Source of the DNA: Candidatus Omnitrophota bacterium
Lineage (GTDB): Bacteria; Omnitrophota; Gorgyraeia; 2-01-FULL-45-10
Direction of reading: 5' to 3'
DNA length: 32,664 nucleotides
Assembly (NCBI GenBank): GCA_018823705.1
Contig: JAHJHP010000055.1
Location: forward strand, 1 to 32,664
Shown here: one piece after another, positions 27,827 to 32,641 of the stretch
Position numbering within the stretch: position 1 is the first letter of the stretch
Layout of the letters: the number at the start of each line of letters is the position of its first letter
The notes under the pieces: generated by a model
Seen by the model: the letters and a program-made list of their open reading frames with translations, nothing else
What the model was told of the DNA's origin: nothing
The model's database searches: none
Program-made: the position numbers and the translations under genes

Positions 27827-29269
27827 ATGAAGATCAAATCCCGTTACAAAAAAATACTACTGTCAATCCTCATTATCCCCGCAATAGCGATCCTTGTAAT
27901 TTTCATAATTGATCCTAATCTGTTGAGCCCGAAGACGCAGGGTTCGTTTGAGTATATCCGTAAAGGCGAGGCTCTTCTGGATAAGGGTAAATATGTCGAG
28001 GCGATCAAATATTATGAGATGGCCTACGCAGCATCTCCGGATAGCGATGAGATCAAGAACGGCCTGGTCTATGCGTATTCGAAGTACGCAGTAAAGTTGG
28101 CTGAGTCCGAAAGATATAATATGGGCGTAAAATATCTTTCGAAAGCGAATGATATTGCCGGGAGCGCTTATACCAGACAGAACCTTTCATTGATGTATGC
28201 CAAGAAGGCGGTCTTTGAGGCCAGGTCTTCCGACCGGACCAGGGCGCGGGAAGATTTGGATATGGCCCGTGAGATAGCCGGTGATTCTGTCGCCTGCGGG
28301 AGAAGTCTCGGCATAACTTTATTTAACGACGCGGTCGTTGAGTTCAAGGCCGGGAAAGAAGATAACGCGATCTTACTGATAAGGACGGCGTTGTCGGTGT
28401 ATGGGGACAGCAACATATACGAATTCCTGGGAGATATATATTACAAGAAGACGGAATTGGAAAAAGCACGGACCTATTTCAATAAAGCAGCCAAATTGGA
28501 TCCGGATAATAAAAAACTTGCCGAAAAATGCGAAAAAGTATCAAAGGAAGAAGCTCTCTCCATTAACGAGAAAGCCAGTGTCCTGCCTTACTTCGACCTG
28601 CGATACGACGAAGACCTCCCCGTAAACGCGGACCTTACGGCGAAGATACTTGAGAAAGCCTATTTCGATATAGGTAAGGACCTGGAGTATCTTCCCGGGA
28701 CCAGGACAGTAGTCTTCTTTTATTCGGAAAAGAACTTCCGCGATATATTCAAGACGCGCGACATGGTCAGGGCGTTTTACGACGGTAACATACGGATACC
28801 TTTACCCGGATCCGTGTCAGACGAGAAAGAGCTTGTCAGCTATCTGTATCACGAATATACGCATGCAATATTATCCGCGAAGACCAACAACAACTGCCCC
28901 GTGTGGCTGAGTGAAGGTATCGCTGTATACGAAGAGTTTAAGTGGACGAGGCCCGGCGCGGCTGTCAATATATCGAAAAATACGGATGATATACCCGTGA
29001 TCTCCATAAAGGCGATCGATCAGATATTTAAGGATCCCGGGACCAACCCAAATAAGCTGGTGGTGGCGTATATACTTGCCTACACGGCCATCGAATTTAT
29101 TGTTGATAACTGGGGATTGAAAGGGCTTCACGGAGTGCTCGATGCGATCGCGCTCGGCCGTCACGCCGTCAATGCGATGGACGATGAATTTTTGTTAAGC
29201 GAGAAGGATTTCGACAGGAGATGGTCGGATTTTGTGGGTAGTAAGTACATCCAGAAAAAAGGAGGCTAA
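27827..29269 (+). CDS. Membrane-anchored TPR protein with gluzincin (peptidase MA-like) domain
   Basis: The 480-aa product has an N-terminal transmembrane anchor (about 9-28). TPR-like repeats span about 38-240 (AIKYYEMAYAASPDSDE, ARTYFNKAAKLDPDNK), and a C-terminal zinc metallopeptidase-like domain has HEYTH (342-346) and, 17 residues after the second His, WLSEG with Glu363 as probable third ligand. This is the HExxH...E gluzincin pattern of peptidase MA-like families. The active site looks intact and should face outside the cytoplasm. Substrates are unknown. It sits 21 bp after fabD with a poor ribosome site. Confidence 0.85.
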   Translation: MKIKSRYKKILLSILIIPAIAILVIFIIDPNLLSPKTQGSFEYIRKGEALLDKGKYVEAIKYYEMAYAASPDSDEIKNGLVYAYSKYAVKLAESERYNMGVKYLSKANDIAGSAYTRQNLSLMYAKKAVFEARSSDRTRAREDLDMAREIAGDSVACGRSLGITLFNDAVVEFKAGKEDNAILLIRTALSVYGDSNIYEFLGDIYYKKTELEKARTYFNKAAKLDPDNKKLAEKCEKVSKEEALSINEKASVLPYFDLRYDEDLPVNADLTAKILEKAYFDIGKDLEYLPGTRTVVFFYSEKNFRDIFKTRDMVRAFYDGNIRIPLPGSVSDEKELVSYLYHEYTHAILSAKTNNNCPVWLSEGIAVYEEFKWTRPGAAVNISKNTDDIPVISIKAIDQIFKDPGTNPNKLVVAYILAYTAIEFIVDNWGLKGLHGVLDAIALGRHAVNAMDDEFLLSEKDFDRRWSDFVGSKYIQKKGG

Positions 29270-29278
29270 AGCAATATT

Positions 29279-29857
29279 ATGGGTAAGTCGATTAAAGGGA
29301 CCAAAACTGAGAAGAATCTGCTGGCGGCATTCGCCGGAGAATCGCAAGCGAGGAACAGATATACTTATTTTGCCAGCGCGGCTAGGAAGGAAGGCTATGA
29401 ACAGATAGCCAATATATTCATCGAGACCGCGGATAACGAGAAAGAGCACGCCAAGATGTTTTTTAAGCATCTCGAGGGCGGTGAAGTCACAATATCAGCA
29501 AGCTATCCGGCAGGTTCAATAAAGGACACCGTAAGTAACCTGGCCGCCGCGGCGGCCGGCGAGAATATGGAGTGGACAAGCATATATTCAAACTTTGCCG
29601 ATGTGGCCGCTAAAGAAGGGCTTCCCGAAGTCGCGCAGACATTCGAACAGATATCCAAGGTGGAGAGATTCCACGAATCGAGATACAGAAGGCTGATAGC
29701 CAATATCGAGAATAAAGAGGTATTCAATAAAAAGGAGAGCGCTAAATGGCATTGCATCAATTGCGGGTATGTCATGGAAGGCGCCCAGGCGCCGAATGAA
29801 TGTCCGGCATGCAAACATCCGCAGGCGTTCTACGAGCTTCTCAGTGAGAATTTCTAA
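29279..29857 (+). CDS. Rubrerythrin
   Basis: Rubrerythrin reduces hydrogen peroxide in anaerobes and microaerophiles. The 192-aa protein has the diiron four-helix domain with Glu21, Glu54, His57, Glu95, Glu98, Glu129 and His132, and a C-terminal rubredoxin domain with Cys159/Cys162 (CINCGY) and Cys175/Cys178 (CPACKHP). It opens with the canonical KGTKTEKNLLAAFAGESQAR. An AAAAGGAGG site overlaps the upstream stop, but 13 bases separate it from the ATG. No rubredoxin reductase is nearby. Its presence supports an oxygen-sensitive lifestyle. Confidence 0.96.
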   Translation: MGKSIKGTKTEKNLLAAFAGESQARNRYTYFASAARKEGYEQIANIFIETADNEKEHAKMFFKHLEGGEVTISASYPAGSIKDTVSNLAAAAAGENMEWTSIYSNFADVAAKEGLPEVAQTFEQISKVERFHESRYRRLIANIENKEVFNKKESAKWHCINCGYVMEGAQAPNECPACKHPQAFYELLSENF

Positions 29858-29870
29858 GGATAGGACGAGG

Positions 29871-31520
29871 ATGAAAGGTTTCCGTCCCGAAGAAATTCTC
29901 TTTTCTCCGACTACCGATTGCAATCTCTCCTGCGGCCATTGCGGAATCACGCCCGCGCGGAAGAAACTCTCCGTTAAGGACGCCGGCAGATTTTTGCTTC
30001 AATGCAGTAAGCTCGGAGTAAAGAGGATAGGATTTACGGGCGGCGAACCCTTTTTGGCGCTCGATTTTTTATGCGCACTGACCCGAAAAGCTGTCGGAAA
30101 AGGGCTCTTATTCGATAGGATAATGACCAATGCTGTCTGGTGGACGAGCGAAGATGAGTTGAAGTCGGCGTTCGGCAGATTACATAATGCAGGATACGAC
30201 GGTTCCATATGCGTCAGCGTGGACGCGTTCCATGCTCAGAGCATCGTGAAGGTAGCGCGTTTCATTGAACTTGCTGCACGAATATGGAGAAGGCCCGATA
30301 TGGTATCGATCGCCTATACCCACGGAGCAAAAGGGCCTGAGACGAAGAGAAAATTAAGGGCGCTCTTCGCGCTGGTTAAGAAGATCCCCGGCGAAATATT
30401 CATCAGGACTCATAAGATAGCATTCGCGCCCATCGGAAACGCGCTGAAGTTTAAAGTTCCTTGGGACGGCAGGTGGTTCAAGGAAGATTATTGTCAGGGG
30501 CCCGGCAACGTATTCCTTGTGGCCCCAGACGGTGACGTCAGGCCATGCTGCGGCTACGCCACGCCGAGAAGAGAGCTTTCAATAGGAAATATCAAAACGG
30601 ATTCCGCCGCGGCCATTATGAAAAATCTCAAAAAGAATAAATTTGTCCATGCGATATTCAATCGCGGTTTAAACGGAATACGCATCCGTCTGGAGAAGTC
30701 CGGTGTGCGTTTTCCCGGCAAGACCGGCAGCCACTGTTACTTTTGCGATTATATACTCACCAAAGTGCCGCGGAAGATCCTCGCAGGATGCCTCATGATG
30801 ATACTGGCGTTATCTACTCTCATACCAGGCCGGGTTCTTGCCTGGGACATTAAGGCCGGCGAGGAGTGTCCGGAGATACGATCCAGTTTAGTTAAGAAAG
30901 TAGCTATACCGAAGTGGTATCACGAAGGCCTTTTTTATGATGGCAAGTCATTATGGCTGGCCAACGGCGAAAAAGGTAATATATGGGTTATAGATACCAC
31001 GACCGGCTCGGTAATATCGCGCATGGAGCCCCTGGGGGATTTTTCCGAAGCGCTTATCAGGGCGGATAATGGGAGCCTCTTCACGACAGAGTGGTATACC
31101 AGGAAGGTATATCGGGTAAAGATTGAAGGCGGCCGATTAATATCGAAAAAGGAGAGCTCCCTTGACCCGGCTCATCCCGCCGGAATCGCATCCAGCGGCA
31201 AGCGCCTCTTCCTCATTACCTGGACTAGAGGCCTCGGAACAAAATTTCACCTGGTAGAGATGGATATGGACCTGAAAGTCGTTAGCACGATGCTGATCAG
31301 GGATATACAGGAGCCGTGTCAACTTGCGTGGGATGGTAAAGACCTGTGGATCTCGAGCTGGTATACTAAAAAGATCTACAGGGTGGATATCGACAGATGG
31401 GAGATCACAGGATATATCAGATCGCCTGTCTCCAAGACTACGGGCATAGCCTGGGATGGCGAATATATGTGGGTAACGGGCACGTATAGCGACTTGTATC
31501 AGATGAAGATCGGCAAATGA
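29871..31520 (+). CDS. Radical SAM protein fused to a membrane segment and beta-propeller domain
   Basis: The 549-aa frame has three parts. Residues 1-295 are a radical SAM enzyme with the cluster motif CNLSCGHC (Cys17, 21, 24), GFTGGEP (54-60) and later cysteines (Cys208, 226, 227, 289, 292) that could bind auxiliary clusters as in SPASM-type proteins. Residues about 302-323 are strongly hydrophobic and end VLAW like a signal peptide. Residues 326-549 contain about five repeats such as GLFYDGKSLWLANG and LAWDGKDLWISSWYTKKIYRVD, suggesting a five-bladed propeller possibly related to glutamine cyclotransferases. No stop lies between the parts. An internal start at ATG 30795 or 30798 could give the propeller as a separate exported protein. 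The start 29871 is preferred over upstream frames inside the rubrerythrin gene because of AAGGA at 29857-29861. Confidence 0.78.
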   Translation: MKGFRPEEILFSPTTDCNLSCGHCGITPARKKLSVKDAGRFLLQCSKLGVKRIGFTGGEPFLALDFLCALTRKAVGKGLLFDRIMTNAVWWTSEDELKSAFGRLHNAGYDGSICVSVDAFHAQSIVKVARFIELAARIWRRPDMVSIAYTHGAKGPETKRKLRALFALVKKIPGEIFIRTHKIAFAPIGNALKFKVPWDGRWFKEDYCQGPGNVFLVAPDGDVRPCCGYATPRRELSIGNIKTDSAAAIMKNLKKNKFVHAIFNRGLNGIRIRLEKSGVRFPGKTGSHCYFCDYILTKVPRKILAGCLMMILALSTLIPGRVLAWDIKAGEECPEIRSSLVKKVAIPKWYHEGLFYDGKSLWLANGEKGNIWVIDTTTGSVISRMEPLGDFSEALIRADNGSLFTTEWYTRKVYRVKIEGGRLISKKESSLDPAHPAGIASSGKRLFLITWTRGLGTKFHLVEMDMDLKVVSTMLIRDIQEPCQLAWDGKDLWISSWYTKKIYRVDIDRWEITGYIRSPVSKTTGIAWDGEYMWVTGTYSDLYQMKIGK

Positions 31521-31527
31521 GGGGAGG
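31520..31527 (+). promoter_or_regulatory. Ribosome-binding site deciding the PEBP gene start
   Basis: AGGGGAGG lies 7 bases before ATG 31535 and overlaps the stop of the upstream gene. The earlier in-frame ATG at 31517 has no such site and would place this sequence inside the coding region. Confidence 0.75.
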
Positions 31528-31534
31528 CTTCTTT

Positions 31535-32077
31535 ATGCCTTATGCAATAGCTCTTATGTTATCGGCGGCGCTTGTTATGACCTGTCAACCATTCGCGCAC
31601 GCCAAAGAGAAGGTGATCGAAAAGCTGGAAGTCACATCGAGCGCGTTCAGGGAAGGGGAAATGATACCGAAAAGGTATTCGGGATACGGAGATAACGTCT
31701 CACCCGACATTAGCTGGTCAAAGCCGCCGATAGGCACCAAATGCATGGCGATCATATGTGAGGATCCTGACGCGACGATAGGCACATGGACCCACTGGAT
31801 GGCCTTTAATATCCCTTATAAATCCGGAACATTGCCCGAGAAGATACCCTCCCAGGCCGCGCTGGAAGACGGCACGATTCAGGGTGTGAATGATTTCAAT
31901 AAGACTGGTTATGACGGGCCTCATCCTCCATATGGCACTCACAGGTATTATTTCAGGGTTTACGCGCTGGACACTCGGGTCACTCTCGCAAGCGATGTGA
32001 CCAGAGAAGAGCTTTTGCATGCCATGGAAGGCAATATCCTTGCCGAAGGCTCTCTCATGGGCCGCTACGCGAAGTAA
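31535..32077 (+). CDS. Exported PEBP-family (YbhB/YbcL-like) protein
   Basis: The 180-aa product has a Sec signal peptide (hydrophobic about 3-16, cleavage probably after FAHA at 23). A phosphatidylethanolamine-binding-protein fold follows with NVSPDISWSKPP, CEDPDATIGTWTHWMAFNIP and GPHPPYGTHRYYFRVYALD, the family's ligand-pocket motifs. Bacterial members are named Raf-kinase-inhibitor-like by homology only; their ligands are mostly unknown. The gene directly follows the radical SAM/propeller gene, so the two may share an operon. A long palindrome starts right after its stop. Confidence 0.92.
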   Translation: MPYAIALMLSAALVMTCQPFAHAKEKVIEKLEVTSSAFREGEMIPKRYSGYGDNVSPDISWSKPPIGTKCMAIICEDPDATIGTWTHWMAFNIPYKSGTLPEKIPSQAALEDGTIQGVNDFNKTGYDGPHPPYGTHRYYFRVYALDTRVTLASDVTREELLHAMEGNILAEGSLMGRYAK

Positions 32078-32287
32078 GATTTTTCGGCCTACTCAGTAGT
32101 CCCTCGCGGGGAGGGTGCCTCGCGGGGACGCAAAATTTCCCCGGCGTTGAAATTTTGCTCTGAAAGTTCGCTCGCTCTTTTTGGCGTGCAGGAATACCAG
32201 GGCCAAAAATCCGTGCCCGCTCGCGACTTTCAATGCCCCGCTCGACACCCTCCCCCGCGAGGAACTGCTCATGTCAACCGAAAAATC
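32078..32287. repeat. 210-bp imperfect palindrome
   Basis: The ends are perfect 10-bp inverted repeats (GATTTTTCGG at 32078-32087, CCGAAAAATC at 32278-32287). Further in, 32102-32117 pairs with 32246-32262 (one extra base), and TTTTTGGC (32178-32185) pairs with GCCAAAAA (32202-32209) near the centre. The left arm carries an extra nested hairpin (arms 32130-32139 and 32149-32158, perfect 10 bp). It begins immediately after the PEBP stop codon. It could act as a bidirectional terminator or be a non-autonomous mobile element relic; no target-site duplication is evident. Confidence 0.75.
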
Positions 32288-32305
32288 TTTTGAGGGAGAG
32301 AGTGA

Positions 32306-32343
32306 GCGAAAATATCGTATGATGCCGCACCTTAGGGCTTCAT
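32306..32343 (-). repeat. Intergenic repeat element, copy 2
   Basis: Read on the minus strand, it runs ATGAAGCCCT, AAGGTGCGGC, then GATATTTTCGC, matching copies at 151-194 and 32517-32561. On its minus-strand upstream side lies TATTCGCTCGACGTAAA (32424-32440), which is also found upstream of copy 3. Confidence 0.75.
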
Positions 32344-32423
32344 GAAGCGGCGAGTTGAATTTTTTTGGCATAGTGCGTAGTATAACTGTAGGTGCGCAAG
32401 GCCCATATGGTTAAGGGAGTAGC

Positions 32424-32482
32424 TTTACGTCGAGCGAATATGAAAGTGCGTGAATCTGTACACATTATTCGCTCGACGTAAA
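32424..32482. repeat. 17-bp perfect inverted repeat between repeat copies 2 and 3
   Basis: Arms 32424-32440 and 32466-32482 are perfect reverse complements separated by 25 bp. They form the inner boundaries of the two divergently oriented repeat copies, so the whole stretch 32306-32561 is a large inverted arrangement with variable interiors. Confidence 0.8.
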
Positions 32483-32516
32483 CCTTTGTGCACGGCGAAA
32501 ATAATTCATCGCCGCG

Positions 32517-32561
32517 AATGAAGCCCTCAAGGTGCGGCAAAGGTCGGGATGATATTTTCGC
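32517..32561 (+). repeat. Intergenic repeat element, copy 3
   Basis: It runs AATGAAGCCCT, AAGGTGCGGC, then GATATTTTCGC, with a short variable link. It ends 15 bp before the -35 of the heat-shock promoter. Confidence 0.78.
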
Positions 32562-32614: not shown

Positions 32615-32641
32615 TTAGCACTCTTTTAGATTGAGTGCTAA
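32615..32641 (+). promoter_or_regulatory. CIRCE operator (HrcA binding site)
   Basis: TTAGCACTC (32615-32623), nine bases and GAGTGCTAA (32633-32641) give the exact CIRCE consensus; a flanking G-C pair extends the palindrome to 32614-32642. HrcA binds it to repress chaperone genes until heat stress. The controlled gene starts beyond the window and is most likely groES-groEL or an hrcA/grpE/dnaK unit. Confidence 0.96.

Follow-up and report, generated by a model that had tools for sequence, protein, structure and literature searches.

Positions 29871 to 31520 on the forward strand of the window, by which we mean the whole 32,664-nucleotide stretch of DNA analyzed here, translate as a single stop-free open reading frame of 549 amino acids with its stop codon at 31518-31520 (+). 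Residues 1-297 (29871..30761, +) comprise a radical SAM domain and a SPASM/twitch-type C-terminal half resembling EpeE/YydG, and residues 325-549 (30843..31517, +) form a five-bladed β-propeller with the type I glutaminyl cyclase fold. The junction between the two, KVPRKILAGCLMMILALSTLIPGRVLA (30762..30842, +), resembles a signal peptide, and a signal peptidase I site is predicted between 30842 and 30843. Within the junction is an in-frame ATG ATG (30795..30800, +), a candidate internal start with AGGA at 30785-30788, 6 nt upstream. The original prediction had described a radical SAM enzyme, a hydrophobic segment, and a propeller of about five repeats in one frame, and the open frame, the Pfam matches, and the structural models all showed this anatomy to be correct.

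The predicted neighbors were likewise confirmed by profile matches. A rubrerythrin gene lies upstream (29279..29857, +; NF045767, 296 bits, over the cut-off), and a gene for an exported PEBP protein of the YbhB/YbcL type lies downstream (31517..32077, +; TIGR00481, 139 bits; PF01161). As delimited, the PEBP gene shares a 4-nt ATGA overlap with the fused gene, but the sequence makes an ATG at 31535, behind GGGAGG, the likelier start. Upstream of the rubrerythrin gene, positions 27827-29269 of the window encode a TPR protein with a Peptidase_MA-like C-terminal domain, found in the same position in several genomes of the Omnitrophota family f1. Between the PEBP gene and the groES promoter region is an interspersed repeat (32085-32545) for which its own genome has dozens of complete or partial matches, many at 81-96% identity and several at contig ends. 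The repeat contains internal inverted repeats and looks like a MITE-type element. A perfect CIRCE element, TTAGCACTC-N9-GAGTGCTAA (32615-32641), lies at the end of the window, and groES and groEL come next in close relatives.

Fold and family of the two halves

In Pfam scans, residues 208-258 matched SPASM (PF13186) at 31.5 bits versus a cut-off of 21.5, residues 12-123 matched Radical_SAM just under its cut-off, and the propeller exceeded the Glu_cyclase_2 cut-off only when scanned on its own. The cysteines of the CX3CX2C motif, C17, C21, and C24 (29919..29942, +), assigned to the AdoMet cluster, are invariant in 41 family members, as is a GGEP motif, and the model of the domain matched solved radical SAM enzymes; these features place it in the radical SAM superfamily. 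The later cysteines anticipated by the original prediction are C208, C226, C227, C289, and C292. They lie in CX12GX4CC (30492..30551, +) and CX2C (30735..30746, +), are invariant in all 41 members, and conform to the SPASM/twitch pattern of CX9-15GX4C plus later cysteines. By analogy, C208 and C226 would be auxiliary-cluster ligands and C289 and C292, which align with the CGVC of EpeE, the remaining ones, making this a putative cluster-binding domain.

The full-length AlphaFold model was poor in parts of the enzyme half, and this half was therefore remodeled with a wide alignment of the 41 members, giving a pLDDT of 91. The nine best PDB matches of the new model were all EpeE, the Bacillus subtilis peptide epimerase (PDB 8ai1-8ai6; TIGR04078), with TMq values of 0.73-0.76, and the next enzyme scored 0.59. 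The likeness thus extends over the fold of the whole domain, the CX3CX2C motif, and the auxiliary-cluster cysteines. It also includes the second cysteine of the PCC motif, C227, which is invariant in 41 of 41 members and aligns with C223 in the sequence of the EpeE C223A variant. In EpeE, C223 gives a hydrogen atom back to the substrate radical (PMC5682303).

The two enzymes nonetheless share only 18% identity, and the residue aligned with EpeE Asp210, which was mutated in the solved D210A variant, is not Asp. The enzyme half scored 49.4 bits with the YydG model TIGR04078, for which the curated cut-off is 300, and all 41 members matched this model at E ≤ 1e-5. Unlike EpeE, it is continued at the C terminus by a signal segment and a propeller. 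A survey of small open reading frames up to 1.3 kb from about 40 family members recovered no conserved precursor peptide gene; the only clusters consisted of reading frames shadowing known genes and of enzyme C-terminal tails, the neighboring genes varied, and a RiPP-type precursor beside the enzyme was rejected on these results. Because the score was far below the cut-off, Asp210 was lost, and a precursor gene was not found nearby, we did not file the enzyme as YydG. From the fold and the cysteines, our best guess is that the enzyme may abstract a Cα hydrogen from a peptide or protein and return a hydrogen from C227, resulting in epimerization. We offer this tentatively, with the balance tipping somewhat against it, and other SPASM chemistries are possible.

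A scan of genome contigs revealed relatives in Elusimicrobia, Planctomycetota, and Spirochaetota that span the whole enzyme domain and share 34-41% identity with it, and among these neither a common partner gene nor an adjacent propeller was seen. The enzyme half is a member of an unnamed orphan family, present in at least four phyla including the Omnitrophota and structurally closest to EpeE/YydG. The wider interest of the fusion is that it brought this family to light, whose members have the cysteines known from a peptide epimerase and, in the survey of about 40 of them, no adjacent precursor peptide gene. Motifs of the family (L059-L076 and L187-L191, including other Omnitrophota) are CNLxCxHC, MTNxxW, WFxxDxCxGPG, PCCG, and CxxC. 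Most Planctomycetota members have a Gly-rich C-terminal tail.

The propeller scored 20.8 bits with Glu_cyclase_2 as part of the whole protein and 25.0 bits (E 1.5e-5) as a separated half, the gathering cut-off being 22.3. The top six PDB matches of its AlphaFold model were five-bladed glutaminyl cyclases with TMt values of 0.70-0.78. The propeller resembles the type I enzymes of plants and bacteria (2faw, 2iwa, 3mbr, 3nol) in fold, in blade number, and in retaining one Trp and the Glu of the FTEG and FGEG motifs, both motif Glu being invariant. The active-site set of the type I enzymes, which we take to be Glu, Trp, Asn, and Lys, is however incomplete, as the positions of the Asn (LNELE) and Lys (VTGK) are variable or Thr here. 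Ordinary glutaminyl cyclase activity is unlikely because these two positions are not kept, and we would expect the propeller to serve in binding or as a structural element, or to catalyze an altered reaction, as opposed to forming pyroglutamate. Weak profile similarity to virginiamycin B lyase and YVTN-type propellers was also detected, but the Vgb_lyase model scored 20 versus a cut-off of 50, and the structure search preferred the glutaminyl cyclases.

Occurrence and origin of the fused frame

The fused, full-length frame without a stop was found in eight genomes from five genera of the single Omnitrophota family f1, to which the window belongs, at 50-68% identity, which contradicts the possibility raised with the original prediction that the halves are fused only in this genome. 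The dN/dS was approximately 0.1 for both domains (0.19/1.62 and 0.17/1.58 for the window compared with G003, the closest relative). The junction diverges faster than the domains, with only 33-38% identity when the window is set against its closest relatives, and its frame is kept; indels across the fused set are in-frame only. Neither an assembly error nor a decaying frame is compatible with stop-free recurrence in eight genomes and purifying selection on the two domains, and the fusion is genuine and lineage-restricted.

A sequencing, assembly, or pseudogene artifact might be thought of, since the related genomes are largely metagenome-assembled. With eight independent assemblies, indels confined to whole codons, and both domains under purifying selection, we regard this as having next to no probability. 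Recurrence rules out an assembly or sequencing error in particular, and conservation and dN/dS rule out a chance run-on frame. The original prediction had taken a stop codon and a new start between the domains of homologs as a sign of error. Such an arrangement does exist in f1 members outside the fused lineages, but its reading as an error fails against the eight fused genomes. The architecture matched no described family in the profile libraries and literature searched, as had been suspected; the literature search for radical SAM-propeller fusions, including any in Omnitrophota, returned nothing relevant. It is a true domain arrangement of limited phyletic spread, in a genome collection covering about half of known species. 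No plasmid relatives were found.

Outside the fused lineages of f1, the enzyme and the propeller are separate genes that overlap in another frame, lie adjacent, or occupy distant loci. In G009 and G006, the propeller starts at an ATG within the last codons of the radical SAM gene, in another frame, so a single indel would be enough for fusion. The propeller of G016 starts a few bases past the enzyme stop codon, and in G007, G021, G023, and G025 a third small gene, c15, lies between the two. The propeller of G012 and G018 is at a fabD...gpsA locus without the enzyme, which is elsewhere, and in G020 and G013 both genes are at other loci. In the rpoB tree, the 15 genomes with adjacent or fused genes group together with support of 99/97, and those with separate loci fall outside this clade, indicating that adjacency preceded fusion. 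Most simply, a frameshift or other indel in the overlap of two operon neighbors would have produced the single frame, and the likely path runs from separate loci through overlapping neighbors to one frame.

There was at least one fusion event, and perhaps there were two or three. The radical SAM and propeller trees require at least two changes for the fused state, and the junction is 42-43 codons long in one fused group and 51 in the other; a single fused clade was not rejected on the rpoB tree (p-AU 0.35), and tree support within f1 is modest. PEBP, and not the enzyme, is the fusion partner of the propeller in G006, G009, and G025 (L047:6815-8050, L053:1695-2963, and L054:5661-6905, all on the reverse strand), such that one operon has been fused at two different joints. 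The c15 gene encodes a small exported coiled-coil protein (L038:891-1292, L041:6755-7165, L046:8186-8635, and L054:6880-7332), with diverged copies elsewhere in other genomes. Its absence from most loci rules it out as a universal third component.

Junction and predicted processing

Most separate propellers have recognizable, ordinary N-terminal signal peptides. In the fused protein of the window, residues ~298-324 are signal-peptide-like, with a hydrophobic segment at ~303-319 and a V-x-A site. In all eight fused genes the conserved frame runs on without interruption and encodes internal n/h/c signal features: a basic stretch (net +2 to +4) is followed by a short hydrophobic core (KD 2.5-3.6 over 11 residues) and an A-x-A-type site, which reads VLA/W in the window and AFA/G, ASA/Q, VSA/E, AEA/R, AHA/E, SSA/E, and SYA/E in the others, the slash marking the predicted cut. 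These cleavage features are kept despite fast divergence of the junction, the pattern expected if selection were for signal peptidase processing and not for a particular linker.

We favor, with moderate confidence, the reading that the gene encodes a polyprotein that arose by frameshift within an operon. A single two-part precursor would be made, the EpeE-like half of which would fold in the cytoplasm. The junction would act as an internal Sec signal peptide, with its basic residues inside and its hydrophobic core in the membrane, and would direct export of the propeller. Cleavage by signal peptidase I at about VLA/WD (30842/30843) would then free the propeller in the periplasm; the enzyme would keep a short hydrophobic tail, which may hold it at the membrane or may later be trimmed. 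The cytochrome b/c1 polyprotein of Bradyrhizobium japonicum, FbcH, is separated into its halves by signal peptidase at an internal signal peptide. The arrangement predicted here is similar in that one open reading frame joins a membrane half and an exported half that are split at such a peptide; however, the proteins are unrelated, and the FbcH halves form one complex, whereas the partnership of enzyme and propeller is not obligate. In what is probably a conserved bacterial polyprotein, a signal peptide apparently now serves as the linker that joins an oxygen-sensitive enzyme of the cytoplasm to a protein that is exported, and gene callers and localization predictors would mislabel fused proteins of this kind.

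The permanent tether of radical chemistry to an external domain, as originally proposed, is unsupported: every one of the eight junctions retains a signal peptidase-type site, and the genes are independent elsewhere. A stable bifunctional membrane protein, with an uncleaved signal anchor linking the enzyme inside to a propeller outside, for example as a sensor or scaffold, would fit the fused and conserved frame and the hydrophobic stretch of some members, such as G003, which at ~18-19 residues is long enough for an anchor. It is made unlikely by the small residues at -3 and -1 throughout the rapidly diverging junctions and by the occurrence of the parts as separate genes, each also alone, in many related genomes. 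The alternative of two products from one frame, in which read-through is accompanied by synthesis of the propeller also or mainly from the ATGs at 30795/30798, starts from codons that are indeed present with AGGA at a 6-nt spacing. Where the old signal began, G004 retains an in-frame ATG-AAG and G014 a GTG, such that separate initiation is possible in both. The start is nevertheless not conserved among the fused relatives. In G003 the sole candidate is a GTG that falls midway through the hydrophobic core. None of G001, G002, and G015 has an ATG from which a usable signal would result, the two in G002 being located far upstream, at VMTK, and late within the core; the best that these three offer is a GTG at KVPR that lacks a consistent Shine-Dalgarno sequence. 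The signal peptide begun at the internal start of the window would itself lack basic residues before the core. The fused relatives thereby rule out internal initiation as a general mechanism, and we consider the two-product explanation quite improbable; a minor second product from ATG 30795 is possible in the genome of the window. It is very improbable, finally, that the enzyme half modifies, for example epimerizes, its own propeller or signal segment, either ahead of Sec export or while it proceeds, with signal peptidase then separating the two. Were this coupling in cis true, the protein would be a self-delivering maturase whose substrate lies within its own polypeptide, and a lineage of the epimerase-like orphan family would act on proteins instead of dedicated precursor peptides.

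Enzyme, propeller, and rubrerythrin as neighbors

Co-occurrence was assessed across 384 sampled genomes of the phylum. Families f37 and f51 have the propeller without the enzyme, and families f12, f46, and f47, as well as other phyla, have the enzyme without the propeller. An obligate pair is ruled out, as each was found alone. The f37 and f51 propellers are often near leuS, spermidine-type, or comEC/EA-like genes, as named from reading of the sequences, and the neighbors of the enzyme in f12, f46, and f47 vary, with none fixed. Since each part occurs alone and three f1 genomes have a propeller-PEBP fusion instead, the association looks like an operon neighborhood and not an established two-part machine.

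We give an even chance to the fusion being a neutral by-product, in which the stop between overlapping neighbors was lost and the result was tolerated through separation by signal peptidase, with no functional link between the halves. The independent phyletic patterns of propeller and enzyme and the propeller-PEBP fusions in other genera agree with this origin, whereas retention of the fusion over five genera despite strong divergence, with no clear reversion seen, argues against it. A neutral origin, which concerns why the fusion exists, is compatible with the polyprotein model, which concerns how it works.

Rubrerythrin is linked to the radical SAM gene more widely than the propeller is. The rubrerythrin and enzyme genes adjoin each other even in G018 and, convergently, in G013 (L043:7354-8891 and L051:7161-8785), where the propeller lies at another locus. 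This neighborhood hints at peroxide protection for the iron-sulfur enzyme.
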